From contig JAAWGR010000015.1 of the NCBI GenBank assembly GCA_022795445.1, forward strand, positions 1-54,920: a stretch of 54,920 bases of DNA. The letters are read 5' to 3'. This document shows positions 28,951 through 46,906 of the stretch, piece by piece; position 1 is the first letter of the stretch, and each line of letters opens with the position of its first letter. The stretch comes from Oscillibacter sp. (lineage in GTDB: Bacteria > Bacillota > Clostridia > Oscillospirales > Oscillospiraceae). Under the pieces are notes generated by a model. The model made no database searches, was not told the origin of the DNA, and worked only from the letters and a program-made list of their open reading frames with translations. A program made the position numbers and the translations under genes.

Positions 28951-30150
28951 ATGAAAAGAATATTGTCGATCATCCTTGTACTCGCAATGCTGTTTGCCCT
29001 GACCGCCTGCGGCGGCAATAACGGCCAGGACAGCACCGGCGGGGACACCCAACAGGACGACAACAGCACCAGCGGAGACACCCAGCAGACGGAAGAACCC
29101 AGCGGCGACGCCACAGACAGTCCTGTGGCCGGCAAGAAAGTTGCGTACATCATGATTATGCCGTCTGCCACCATCTTCCAAATGTGGGCCAACTCCTGCC
29201 AGGACCTCTGCAAGGCTCTGGGCGCAACCTGCGACGTTTTCTTCTGTGACGGCGACTTCAATAAGTGGCAGGATACCATCCGTACCTGCGCTTCCGGCGG
29301 CTATGACGGCCTGCTGGTCTCCCACGGCAACCAGGACGGCTCCTACGTGTTCCTCAAGGAAATCACAGAAGCCTATCCTGACCTGAAAATCACCTGCTTC
29401 GACACCCAGTTCTATGCCGACGGCGAGTATCAGAAGCTCCCCGGCGTGACCCAGATGTTCCAGCAGGATGCCAGCCTCGTTACCGTCCTCCTGGACGATA
29501 TGATCGAGAAGTTTGGCGAGGGCGTCCGCCTCATCAAGGTTTGGCGCGGCCCCAACTACAACAGCCCGTTTGACCGCCGTGAAGTCGGCTGGCAGGAGTA
29601 TGAAGCTGCCGGCAAGATCGTCACCGTTGGCGAAGTCCAGCCCCTCCAGGATACCGTCGACTCCGCGAACACCGTGTTTGCCGCTTACCTCCAGGGCCTG
29701 AACCGTGACGACGTGGACGGCGTGGTTGTATACTACGACTGCTACGGCCAAGGCGTATACAATGCCATCGTTGAGAACGCCAACTTCAACGGCACCAATG
29801 GCGACGCCCTGCCGATGGGCTCTGTCGACATCGACCCCGTCGATGTGACCAACATGCAGACCCGCCCTGACATCTGGACCGCTGCCGGCACGACCGACTG
29901 GACTTTGAACGGTGAGATCGGTATGCGTATCCTGCTTCTGGAAATCGCCGGCGAGTATGACAAGATTTATGATCCCGCCAGTGGCCAGATGGGTGTCGAT
30001 CTGGTGGAAGTCCCCGGTTCTGCGATCCCAGCTTCCGCTTTGAAGCCTGAGTCTACGGTAGAGAACTTGGGCGATATTGCCGACGAGACCTATGGCAATC
30101 TGAGCTATCTGTCCGTTACGGACTGGATGCCCGCCGACCTGATCCACTAA
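28951..30150 (+). CDS. Ribose-type sugar ABC transporter substrate-binding lipoprotein
   Basis: A 399-residue receptor. A lipoprotein signal MKRILSIILVLAMLFALTAC, with Cys20, is followed by an acidic Thr/Gln/Asp linker to about residue 58. The rest fits the type I periplasmic-binding fold of RbsB-like proteins, with two domains: 'VAYIMIMPSATIFQMWANSC' begins the first and 'GVVVYYDCYGQGVYNAI' belongs to the second. GAGGAGG precedes the ATG at 28951. Ligand residues differ from plain ribose receptors as far as I can judge. The downstream mtnK/mtnA-like genes suggest a 5-modified ribose. Confidence 0.88.
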   Translation: MKRILSIILVLAMLFALTACGGNNGQDSTGGDTQQDDNSTSGDTQQTEEPSGDATDSPVAGKKVAYIMIMPSATIFQMWANSCQDLCKALGATCDVFFCDGDFNKWQDTIRTCASGGYDGLLVSHGNQDGSYVFLKEITEAYPDLKITCFDTQFYADGEYQKLPGVTQMFQQDASLVTVLLDDMIEKFGEGVRLIKVWRGPNYNSPFDRREVGWQEYEAAGKIVTVGEVQPLQDTVDSANTVFAAYLQGLNRDDVDGVVVYYDCYGQGVYNAIVENANFNGTNGDALPMGSVDIDPVDVTNMQTRPDIWTAAGTTDWTLNGEIGMRILLLEIAGEYDKIYDPASGQMGVDLVEVPGSAIPASALKPESTVENLGDIADETYGNLSYLSVTDWMPADLIH

Positions 30151-30188
30151 TTGTCTTCATGCCATAAAATAAAGATTGCATGAACGGA

Positions 30189-30218
30189 GGAAGCGCCGGA
30201 GTTTTTTCCGGCGCTTCC
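30189..30218 (+). terminator. Intra-operon hairpin after the sugar-binding protein gene
   Basis: GGAAGCGCCGGA (30189-30200) pairs perfectly with TCCGGCGCTTCC (30207-30218) and is followed only by TTGA. It probably stabilizes or partly terminates after the receptor gene so that receptor exceeds permease. Confidence 0.72.
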
Positions 30219-30260
30219 TTGATATGATCGAATTACGTCCGCGAGAAAAGAGGGAGCCCC

Positions 30261-45477: not shown

Positions 45478-45770
45478 CCAAAGTAGTCGGGAATGTGGTT
45501 TCCACAGTCAAAGACAGCGCGCTTGCGCCTTATAAACTGCTGATTGTGGAGTATTTGAACCCCTTGACCATGGAACCCGAGGGGGAACAGGAAATTGCCA
45601 CAGATTGCGTTTGCGCTGGAGCAGGCGACATCGTACTTGTGGACACGGACGGCGGCGCGGGCAATATGATCCATGAGGACTGGAACGTCATGACGGACCG
45701 GATTTGCTGCGCCATTATCGAAAGCGTCAGCTGTTATGGGAAGAAAACCGTCACGCGGCATGGCGCTTGA
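45468..45770 (+). CDS. BMC pentameric vertex protein, EutN/CcmL family (third)
   Basis: A 100-residue BMC-P protein with 'MRIAKVVGNVVSTVKDSALAPYKLLIVE' and 'CVCAGAGDIVLVDTDGGAGNMI'. It is closest in layout to the first copy. Three distinct vertex proteins with only one hexamer gene may allow different vertex permeabilities or cargo contacts. Confidence 0.93.
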   Translation: MRIAKVVGNVVSTVKDSALAPYKLLIVEYLNPLTMEPEGEQEIATDCVCAGAGDIVLVDTDGGAGNMIHEDWNVMTDRICCAIIESVSCYGKKTVTRHGA

Positions 45771-45815
45771 TCAATCAAAGCGGAATGCCCTCGGAAAAAC
45801 AAGGAGGTACTGCAT

Positions 45816-46259
45816 ATGCTGAAAGGAATCCCGCCGTGCATCTCGCCGGAACTGCTGAAAATTCTGCATGAGATGGGACATGGCGACACCATTGTTATTG
45901 GCGACGCCAACTTCCCCGGAGCGTCGGTGGCGGCGGCAAAAAATCACGTCAACATCCGCTGCGACGGACACCGGGCCACAGAAATCCTGGACGCGGTTTT
46001 GCAGCTGATGCCGCTGGATACTTTTGTAGACCAACCAGTTATCATCATGGATAAAATGGAGATGCACAAGGACTTGGAATGCCCCGTCTGGGACGAATTC
46101 ACCGACATCGTAGCCAAATACGACGAACGCGGTGGAGCTGCTGTTTCTTACATGGGGCGATTCCCCTTCTATGAGGCAGCTAAAAATGCTTACGCAGTGA
46201 TCTCTACCACGGAAACGGCTTTCTATGCCTGCATCATCCTCCAGAAAGGCTGTTTATGA
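45816..46259 (+). CDS. RbsD/FucU-family sugar mutarotase
   Basis: A 147-residue protein of the RbsD/FucU family, which interconverts anomers of ribose or fucose. The family N-terminus 'ISPELLKILHEMGHGDTIVIGDANFPG' includes the conserved His22 and Asp30. It resembles FucU more than RbsD by length. In this locus it would supply the anomer used by the kinase. It overlaps the second aldolase gene by four bases and is part of the BMC operon. Confidence 0.9.
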   Translation: MLKGIPPCISPELLKILHEMGHGDTIVIGDANFPGASVAAAKNHVNIRCDGHRATEILDAVLQLMPLDTFVDQPVIIMDKMEMHKDLECPVWDEFTDIVAKYDERGGAAVSYMGRFPFYEAAKNAYAVISTTETAFYACIILQKGCL

Positions 46260-46906
46260 TGGAAAACTGGAAACGGAGCGTCATTGACGCGGGAATTCGC
46301 ATGCTTGACGAGGGTATCACCGTTGGCACCTGGGGAAATGTTACTTTGCGGGACCCAGAAACCAATTACGTTTATCTCAGCCCCAGTGGGATGCCTTACC
46401 GGACATTGACGGAAAACGACATTGTTGTTGTGCGTTTGGACGGAAGCCGGGTAGAGGGCGAACGGAAGCCCACCATTGAGACCGAAATGCACCTTGCAAT
46501 TTACCGGGCACGGCCGGCATGCAATGCCGTCATCCATACCCATCCGATTTATTCCACAGCATTCTCAGCCATGGGCGAGGAGATTCCTCTGCTGCTGGAT
46601 GAGGCGGCGCAAGTGCTGGGCGATACCGTGCGGACGGCAGATTATGCCCTGCCGGGCTCCATGGAATTGGCCGAGAACTGTGTGAAGGCTTTGGGCGAGA
46701 AATCCATGGCTTGCCTGCTGAAATCCCATGGAGCTGTGTGCTTGGGTGAAAATCTGGAGCAAGCCTTTGGCAACTCCACCGTTTTGGAGGCGACTGCCCA
46801 GGTTTACAGCATCATCCGTGCCATGGGCGGGACATTTGAGCCGATTTCACCGGAAAATATTGCTGCGATGCAGGATTTCGTCAAATATCGCTATGGGCAG
46901 CGGTAA
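46256..46906 (+). CDS. Class II aldolase, fuculose-phosphate aldolase type (second copy)
   Basis: A 216-residue zinc aldolase without a targeting tail. Glu75 is in KPTIETEMH, and zinc ligands are His94, His96 (IHTHP) and His158 (SHGAV). It is compact like bacterial FucA. It lacks the Cys-rich tail of the aldolase at 39530, so it may act in the cytoplasm or on a different sugar phosphate. It is the last gene of the BMC operon. An ATG three bases later is an alternative start. Confidence 0.9.
   Translation: MMENWKRSVIDAGIRMLDEGITVGTWGNVTLRDPETNYVYLSPSGMPYRTLTENDIVVVRLDGSRVEGERKPTIETEMHLAIYRARPACNAVIHTHPIYSTAFSAMGEEIPLLLDEAAQVLGDTVRTADYALPGSMELAENCVKALGEKSMACLLKSHGAVCLGENLEQAFGNSTVLEATAQVYSIIRAMGGTFEPISPENIAAMQDFVKYRYGQR

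Follow-up and report, generated by a model that had tools for sequence, protein, structure and literature searches.

5-Deoxyribose and methylthioribose are waste products of radical S-adenosylmethionine (SAM) enzymes and of SAM-dependent reactions. In Bacillus thuringiensis and Escherichia coli, a kinase, an isomerase and a class II aldolase, together known as the dihydroxyacetone phosphate (DHAP) shunt, convert either sugar to DHAP and an aldehyde (PMC6079011, PMC10986504), and E. coli with this shunt cannot ferment 5-deoxyribose according to the accessible text of PMC10986504. Microcompartments that combine a class II aldolase, an aldehyde dehydrogenase (AldDH) and related cores are already catalogued as PVM-like in the accessible sources. 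Here we analyzed 54,920 nt of contig JAAWGR010000015.1 of Oscillibacter sp. (GCA_022795445.1), forward strand (the window), in which positions 28951-46906 hold a bacterial microcompartment (BMC) locus with a class II aldolase that bears a C-terminal tail. This aldolase is probably enclosed in the shell, and its predicted substrate is 5-deoxyribulose 1-phosphate or the 5-methylthio analogue, likely a product of MtnK and MtnA, which it would split into DHAP and acetaldehyde (or methylthioacetaldehyde). The sequence data behind this reading are gene content, operon layout, equivalog-level MtnK and MtnA, the co-occurrence of tail and shell in the loci examined, and the lineages of the aldolase and of a RuBisCO-like protein (RLP).

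Gene Content of the Locus

The region contains, all in intact open frames, a sugar ATP-binding cassette (ABC) importer (sugar-binding lipoprotein, Peripla_BP_4, 28951-30150; two-domain ATPase, 30261-31796; permease, BPD_transp_2, 31814-32806), an MtnK-type kinase (32855-34066), an MtnA-type isomerase (34106-35170), a divergent DeoR-type regulator (35211-35966, minus strand; its start was set at the helix-turn-helix domain, and the open frame extends to 36200) and a 14-gene operon; genes are on the plus strand unless stated otherwise. MtnK (TIGR01767, 398.7 bits, cut-off 275) and MtnA (TIGR00512, 423.8 bits, cut-off 279) both pass NCBI equivalog cut-offs, and MtnA is the sole IF-2B-family match in the assembly (completeness 92.9%). 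The operon runs from the two halves of a split transketolase through the RLP, the tailed aldolase (39530-40348), PduL (40345-41220), a BMC-P shell vertex protein (41242-41547), AldDH (41547-42998), a PduS-like protein (43000-44295), BMC-T (44300-44845), BMC-H (44912-45199) and two more BMC-P (45196-45477 and 45468-45770) to an RbsD/FucU-type sugar mutarotase and a second class II aldolase. Since the 14 genes share one strand, with spacers of at most 51 bases or overlaps, the transketolase, RLP, FucU and second aldolase belong to the shell operon, and the arrangement is not due to chance because it recurs in relatives. An earlier sequence-only reading had placed the importer, MtnK, MtnA, DeoR and an aldolase-type BMC operon here and proposed an enclosed aldolase. 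Its gene list was right as far as it went but left out the transketolase (36436-38363), the RLP (38363-39517), FucU (45816-46259), the second aldolase (46256-46906) and a DhaL/DhaK/PfkB group (25882-28489). The proposal of enclosure is strengthened by a shell-linked tail, an MtnA/MtnK-associated lineage, recurrence in Clostridia and a spirochaete, and the sole IF-2B match; it was nevertheless incomplete, because the RLP and transketolase, which are predicted to act on the same sugar phosphate, had been missed.

One BMC-H and one two-domain BMC-T (PF00936) as well as three BMC-P (PF03319) score above Pfam cut-offs. The AldDH (PRK15398, 642 bits, cut-off 403) and PduL (PRK15070, 232.6 bits, cut-off 209) exceed subfamily cut-offs, so that a coenzyme A (CoA)-acylating AldDH and a phosphotransacylase are both present. 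The PduS-like protein is a flavo-iron-sulfur protein of the RnfC/Complex1_51K type that falls slightly below the rnfC cut-off (241.7 against 245.95 bits), and the BMC-T resembles PduT but stays under the cut-off of the PduT model (106.9 against 250.3 bits). The N-terminal helix of the AldDH, MLSKEQVEEIVRATLAQMG, is kept in those related clostridial BMC loci that possess an AldDH gene. As previously claimed, none of the scanned open reading frames (ORFs; part of those in the window) encodes a diol dehydratase, an ethanolamine lyase or a glycyl radical enzyme. Nor did the scanned ORFs, in the locus or in its flanks, include an alcohol dehydrogenase, for which the PduS-like protein may stand in. 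A second microcompartment locus of the same genome (L112; G000:C5:161-7149) has BMC-H, BMC-T, BMC-P, AldDH, PduL, PduS and a weak EutT match.

Aldolase Tail and Lineage

The tail of the aldolase (residues ~221-272) is modeled as a low-confidence linker (221-254) followed by a helix (255-271), for which the model confidence (pLDDT) is only about 50-60. In form it matches encapsulation peptides, which the accessible text of the BMC catalogue describes as a helix following a linker (PMC8217296). Stronger evidence for the predicted enclosure than this structure model comes from a comparison of loci, which are mutually related and so not independent: all 13 aldolases next to MtnA/MtnK and with shell genes carry the tail (window, L009, L012, L013, L015-L019, L048, L124, L202, L203), and none of the seven next to MtnA/MtnK without shell genes in the stretch has it (L073, L178, L207, L208, L210, L211, L212). 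L181 was excluded from this count, its contig ending inside the aldolase gene; the genome of L073 has two BMC-P genes elsewhere. We predict that the tailed aldolase is the shell-enclosed signature enzyme of the locus and that its tail serves as an encapsulation peptide.

In a tree of aldolase cores with DrdA as outgroup, a 24-member clade (support 0.87) holds all 10 clostridial aldolases with both BMC and Mtn genes then sampled. The same clade includes three MtnA-linked aldolases without shell genes (L073, L178, L181) and none of the 15 from PVM-like loci, a label that was assigned here from layout. The aldolase of the spirochaete Alkalispirochaeta alkalica DSM 8900 branches outside both this clade and the PVM-like group. 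From this placement the encapsulated MtnA-linked aldolase appears to be a development separate from the PVM-like one, made perhaps twice.

Distribution of the Locus

The set of MtnK, MtnA, DeoR, tailed aldolase, PduL and shell genes occurs in 12 clostridial loci (window, L009, L012, L013, L015-L019, L124, L202, L203). In A. alkalica, a contiguous stretch begins with transketolase halves, RLP, a regulator, two solute-binding proteins, ABC and permease genes and ends with three BMC-P, the tailed aldolase, MtnK, DeoR and MtnA; AldDH and BMC-H were not found in this stretch, and the genome has one further BMC-P elsewhere. Two samples of genomes were used to widen the comparison. In 398 genomes of the window's phylum, 37 (its own included) had an aldolase homologue at E <= 1e-60. 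Leaving out that of the window, these gave 38 places, of which 15 lie beside shell genes (none with MtnK or MtnA), two have MtnA without shell genes and 21 have neither, some of them on short contigs. The second sample covered 397 genomes from the family to which the L010 genome belongs and gave 14 aldolase matches at 1e-85, three of which were already in the set. Among the 11 new places, two combine MtnK, MtnA, DeoR and tailed aldolase with shell genes, one has shell genes and a tail without Mtn genes, one has the tail only, five have MtnA (two of them also MtnK) with no tail or shell, and two have none of these. Aldolase-like genes were also seen near BMC-P genes in L131 and L133.

These counts bear on the possibility that the window holds an ordinary PVM-like microcompartment for L-fucose or L-rhamnose, with the adjacent MtnK-MtnA operon being a separate unit of methionine salvage or disposal. 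The class II aldolase, the FucU-type mutarotase and the FucA-like second aldolase (216 aa, no tail; best solved matches DrdA 6btd, 119 bits, and FucA 4c24, 113 bits) would all fit such a function, as would the resemblance in shell, AldDH and PduS content to the 15 loci of the phylum-wide sample. However, no fucose or rhamnose isomerase and no fuculo- or rhamnulokinase was found among the scanned ORFs, MtnK and MtnA stand beside shell genes in 13 loci that include another phylum, and the aldolase lineage is MtnA-linked rather than PVM-like. We regard this explanation as quite unlikely.

A number of observations weigh against the enclosed cleavage of a 5-deoxypentose phosphate. Fifteen of the 38 wider relatives, and L204 as one more, are tailed aldolases in BMC loci without MtnK/MtnA, and therefore a tailed-aldolase BMC alone does not imply a 5-deoxypentose substrate. 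L016 and L018 are without AldDH between BMC-P and PduS, and no RLP was found within the stretch of the shell locus in L124, L202 and L203, so that the RLP is not part of the core. The tailed aldolase is about equally similar to DrdA (81 bits), FucA (83 bits) and 6voq (92 bits), which we take to be YgbL, and scoring of protein termini by hydrophobic moment (amphipathicity) did not pick out its tail. Among the 120 closest aldolases listed, 73 are longer than 255 aa and 45 have 217-240 aa, too short for the tail, some of the latter being up to 92% identical to that of the window; the data cover the surroundings of very few of the 120. Four untailed aldolases (P0126, P0133, P0134, P0144) sit beside that of the window in the tree, and four loci (L206, L179, L180, L184) carry a tail resembling an encapsulation peptide with no shell gene within the stretch covered. 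Finally, the untailed second aldolase that closes the operon could act in the cytosol. In L206 (G908:C28), a DeoR gene and a weak (27%) RLP match are close to the tailed aldolase, and the stretch has no shell or MtnK/MtnA genes.

The window is a meeting point of two modules, one of shell and aldolase and one of RLP and transketolase. This follows from the three shell loci without RLP (L124, L202, L203), together with L010 and L011, where importer, MtnK, MtnA, transketolase, RLP, FucU and DhaK/DhaL are found without this shell locus beside them. L124 belongs to the L014 genome, in which RLP and transketolase lie apart from the shell locus.

The RLP and the Split Transketolase

The RLP (38363-39517; KDDHGL motif) resembles 3qfw of Rhodopseudomonas palustris, presumably RPA2169, in sequence and active site, this being its closest relative of solved structure, and is of the DeepYkr type. 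It is the only PF00016 match in the assembly, and its score for the MtnW enolase equivalog TIGR03332 is well under the cut-off (149.9 against 513.6 bits). The two transketolase genes, a thiamine diphosphate (ThDP)-binding half (36436-37362) and a pyrimidine/C-terminal half (37359-38363), share motifs with other RLP-linked transketolases (GGYxxQACS and EMIGAEHSPGME in the former, GFLPGVTTPGGATHQ in the latter) that are unlike those of the Carboxydothermus split transketolase and, in most cases, unlike those of L118, another split transketolase of the window's genome. The GHPGG and GHP motifs and the H and D of HAG..GEDGASHQ are donor and acceptor residues of canonical transketolases; they are replaced in the window and in the RLP-linked relatives, although the ThDP domains are present. 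In L118, too, the His and Asp of the GEDGASH region are missing, and this change is therefore not special to RLP-linked transketolases.

We collected 80 RLP loci, the best among the matches listed from one genome scan. Within the stretch covered, a transketolase half is present in 55, MtnA or MtnK in 25 (one of them a 30% match) and shell genes in 11; the stretch is free of shell genes in 69 of the 80 loci and, among the 55 that have a transketolase half, in 47. Only in L038 (adjacent) and L068, both without transketolase, does a relative of the Rru_A2000 cupin (3jzv, 135 bits) stand near the RLP, and the RLPs of these two loci group with the transketolase-linked RLP of L056 (support 0.89). 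The occurrence of the cupin where the transketolase is absent suggests that the transketolase uses the RLP product, the two cupin cases being few. A broad mutual exclusion of cupin and transketolase was considered and set aside, as the cupin occurs in only two of the 25 loci without a transketolase half (several of them cut by contig ends) and in none of the 55 with one, which is suggestive only. Across the family, an RLP-like match was found in 12 of 400 genomes, four of them (its own included) close, and in none of eight other genomes of the same genus among those listed. BMC-P genes are present in 31 of 50 and 9 of 30 RLP genomes compared with 84 of 299 genomes of the window's phylum; these counts were not used as proof, because the phyla are unmatched and the RLP set was chosen by similarity. 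In the cultured species Clostridium drakei and C. ljungdahlii (L028:5692-11134, L033:5701-11137), importer, MtnK, MtnA, split transketolase and RLP stand in a row with no shell genes in the stretch. In two Chloroflexi (L051:3677-11122, L066:3-4103), BMC-P genes are immediately followed by the transketolase-RLP pair.

The shell might instead serve this RLP-transketolase branch, the transketolase splitting the 1-substituted xylulose 5-phosphate from the RLP and passing a C2 aldehyde to the AldDH. In its favor, RLP and transketolase lead the shell operon, and in L051 (Anaerolineaceae) transketolase-RLP directly follows a BMC operon in which we found an AldDH but no aldolase. We consider it very unlikely, since the RLP and transketolase keep the ends of their shell-less relatives without an extra tail, shell genes and tailed aldolase stand without an RLP in the stretch in L124, L202 and L203, and most RLP loci have no shell gene in the stretch covered.

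A tentative conjecture, to which we assign a rather small chance, concerns the RLP and split transketolase as an unrecognised, oxygen-independent and methanethiol-releasing route of methionine salvage across many phyla, joined in this lineage to a new 5-deoxyribose-fermenting microcompartment, so that one operon would handle both waste sugars of SAM. The RLP would convert 5-methylthioribulose 1-phosphate to 1-methylthioxylulose 5-phosphate, and the transketolase-like ThDP enzyme would cleave the latter to glyceraldehyde 3-phosphate; the C2 unit that stays bound would expel methanethiol and be released as acetyl. Sulfoacetaldehyde acetyltransferase, which expels sulfite, offers an analogy.

Substrate and Predicted Pathway

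DrdK of B. thuringiensis acts on both 5-deoxyribose and methylthioribose according to the accessible text of PMC6079011, and an MtnK-type score therefore cannot decide the substrate; the two sugars cannot be distinguished from sequence. We favor 5-deoxyribose as the sugar of the shell branch and methylthioribose as that of the RLP branch. Four genes of the PNP_UDP_1 family lie elsewhere in the assembly, and at least one of them could be a nucleosidase.

Alternatively, the whole locus might be a salvage island for the sulfur of methionine that takes methylthioribose, with the shell oxidizing methylthioacetaldehyde to methylthioacetate. The equivalog scores of MtnK and MtnA would agree with this, as would the 3qfw type of the RLP, given that in R. 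palustris RLP1, an isomerase, and Ald2 both use methylthioribulose 1-phosphate (PMC5893883, accessible text). Some of 76 RLPs have a pyridoxal phosphate (PLP) enzyme of the Cys/Met type (7) or a cysteine synthase (4) nearby, which points the same way, but these are mostly ~2-7.5 kb away and a weak signal, just two of the seven Cys/Met enzymes directly adjoin the RLP, and one that was scanned scored under every cut-off among the matches listed. Taken with the dual specificity of DrdK and with the lack of a SAM riboswitch among Rfam matches in the window, this makes the methylthioribose island unlikely.

For the enclosed DHAP shunt, which the comparative evidence supports, we propose the following course. 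The sugar would be imported, or formed inside the cell from 5'-deoxyadenosine or 5'-methylthioadenosine (MTA), and FucU would equilibrate its anomers. In the cytosol, MtnK would produce the 1-phosphate, which MtnA would convert to the ketose 1-phosphate. Within the shell, this ketose phosphate would be split by the aldolase, AldDH would convert the aldehyde to acyl-CoA, and PduL would turn acyl-CoA into acyl-phosphate and free CoA. Because no alcohol dehydrogenase was found in the locus, we propose that the PduS/PduT-like pair exports electrons from the shell. Aldol cleavages of this kind have an equilibrium constant of about 1e-4, far toward the sugar phosphate (PMC6079011, accessible text), so that a co-enclosed AldDH would pull the reaction forward by consuming the aldehyde. 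In parallel, outside the shell, the RLP would act on the same ketose 1-phosphate and shift its carbonyl, and the resulting 1-substituted xylulose 5-phosphate would be consumed by the split transketolase. Enclosed cleavage coupled to acyl-phosphate formation would let anaerobes ferment 5-deoxyribose.

An operator common to the importer and operon promoters was looked for and not found, and promoter and terminator scans of the window gave results near chance level. Rfam gave a single match in the window, at its far end: a cobalamin riboswitch (158-345, plus strand) ahead of a periplasmic-binding protein and a FecCD-type importer. DhaK, mostly with DhaL and often with FucU, recurs near the MtnK/MtnA module (L010, L011, L012, L124, L203, L211); in the window, DhaL, DhaK and a PfkB-type kinase occupy 25882-28489 on the minus strand. 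Just downstream of the locus (47287-53838) are genes for a Sigma-54 activator, a TRAP transporter, a 3-hydroxyacyl-CoA dehydrogenase and BKACE proteins. Mobile-element genes (DUF5906/D5-like, Mob_Pre relaxase, serine recombinase) lie at 5933-10181, ~19 kb upstream of the importer.

Comparison with Known Systems

With the DHAP shunt and 5-deoxyribose disposal clusters (drdK-drdI-drdA; mtnK-mtnA-ald2), the locus shares a clustered kinase, isomerase and class II aldolase, such clusters often including a sugar importer; by sequence, its kinase is of the MtnK type and its isomerase of the MtnA type, and its class II aldolase falls in the lineage linked to MtnA. It differs in that its aldolase is tailed and shares a shell operon with AldDH, PduL and PduS. 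The accessible text of PMC10986504 does not use the word "microcompartment", nor, by word counts, does that of PMC6079011, PMC12632272 or PMC8102628.

PVM-like (and GRM5/PVM) aldolase microcompartments likewise have a class II aldolase in a shell locus with a CoA-acylating AldDH, and the PVM-like loci sampled also share the tail, PduL, PduS and often DeoR with the window. In contrast to the window, none of the 15 has MtnK/MtnA, their aldolases belong to another clade, and they mostly have several BMC-H and one BMC-P, compared with one BMC-H and three BMC-P here. The accessible text of PMC8156839 names an AldDH and a class II aldolase for MIC loci; one of these, MIC4 of Lachnospiraceae bacterium KGMB03038, could be the same locus type under a function-less name.

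In the MTA-isoprenoid shunt of Rhodospirillum rubrum and R. palustris (RLP1 and cupin), the MtnA product also goes to a DeepYkr-type RLP, and R. palustris, as predicted for the window, has an aldolase acting on the same intermediate as the RLP. Unlike that shunt, the window has a kinase in place of the phosphorylase and a shell in addition; no cupin methylsulfurylase lies beside its RLP, where a split transketolase is found instead. Apulose-4-phosphate transketolase is a split transketolase in a sugar-catabolic operon, likened here by description only, and that of the window differs in having an RLP as partner. The same likeness, again by description only, and the same difference apply to the sulfo-transketolase SqwGH (PMC11659671, accessible text).

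No such microcompartment was found in the open-licence literature, supplements excluded, where a bare locus name such as MIC4 may already exist. The sequence-only reading knew of no described BMC type with this gene set; this holds for the MtnK/MtnA set, which was not found in the main texts of the catalogues, but not for the core of aldolase and AldDH. If the enclosed DHAP shunt is correct, microcompartments gain a further class of substrate, the occurrence of kinase-isomerase-aldolase sets with and without the tail is accounted for, and the locus points to a putative RLP-transketolase pathway. Because PVM-like microcompartments with aldolase and AldDH are already catalogued, the aldolase-type microcompartment itself is known, and only the MtnK/MtnA front end, the RLP/transketolase pair and the predicted substrate are new here.

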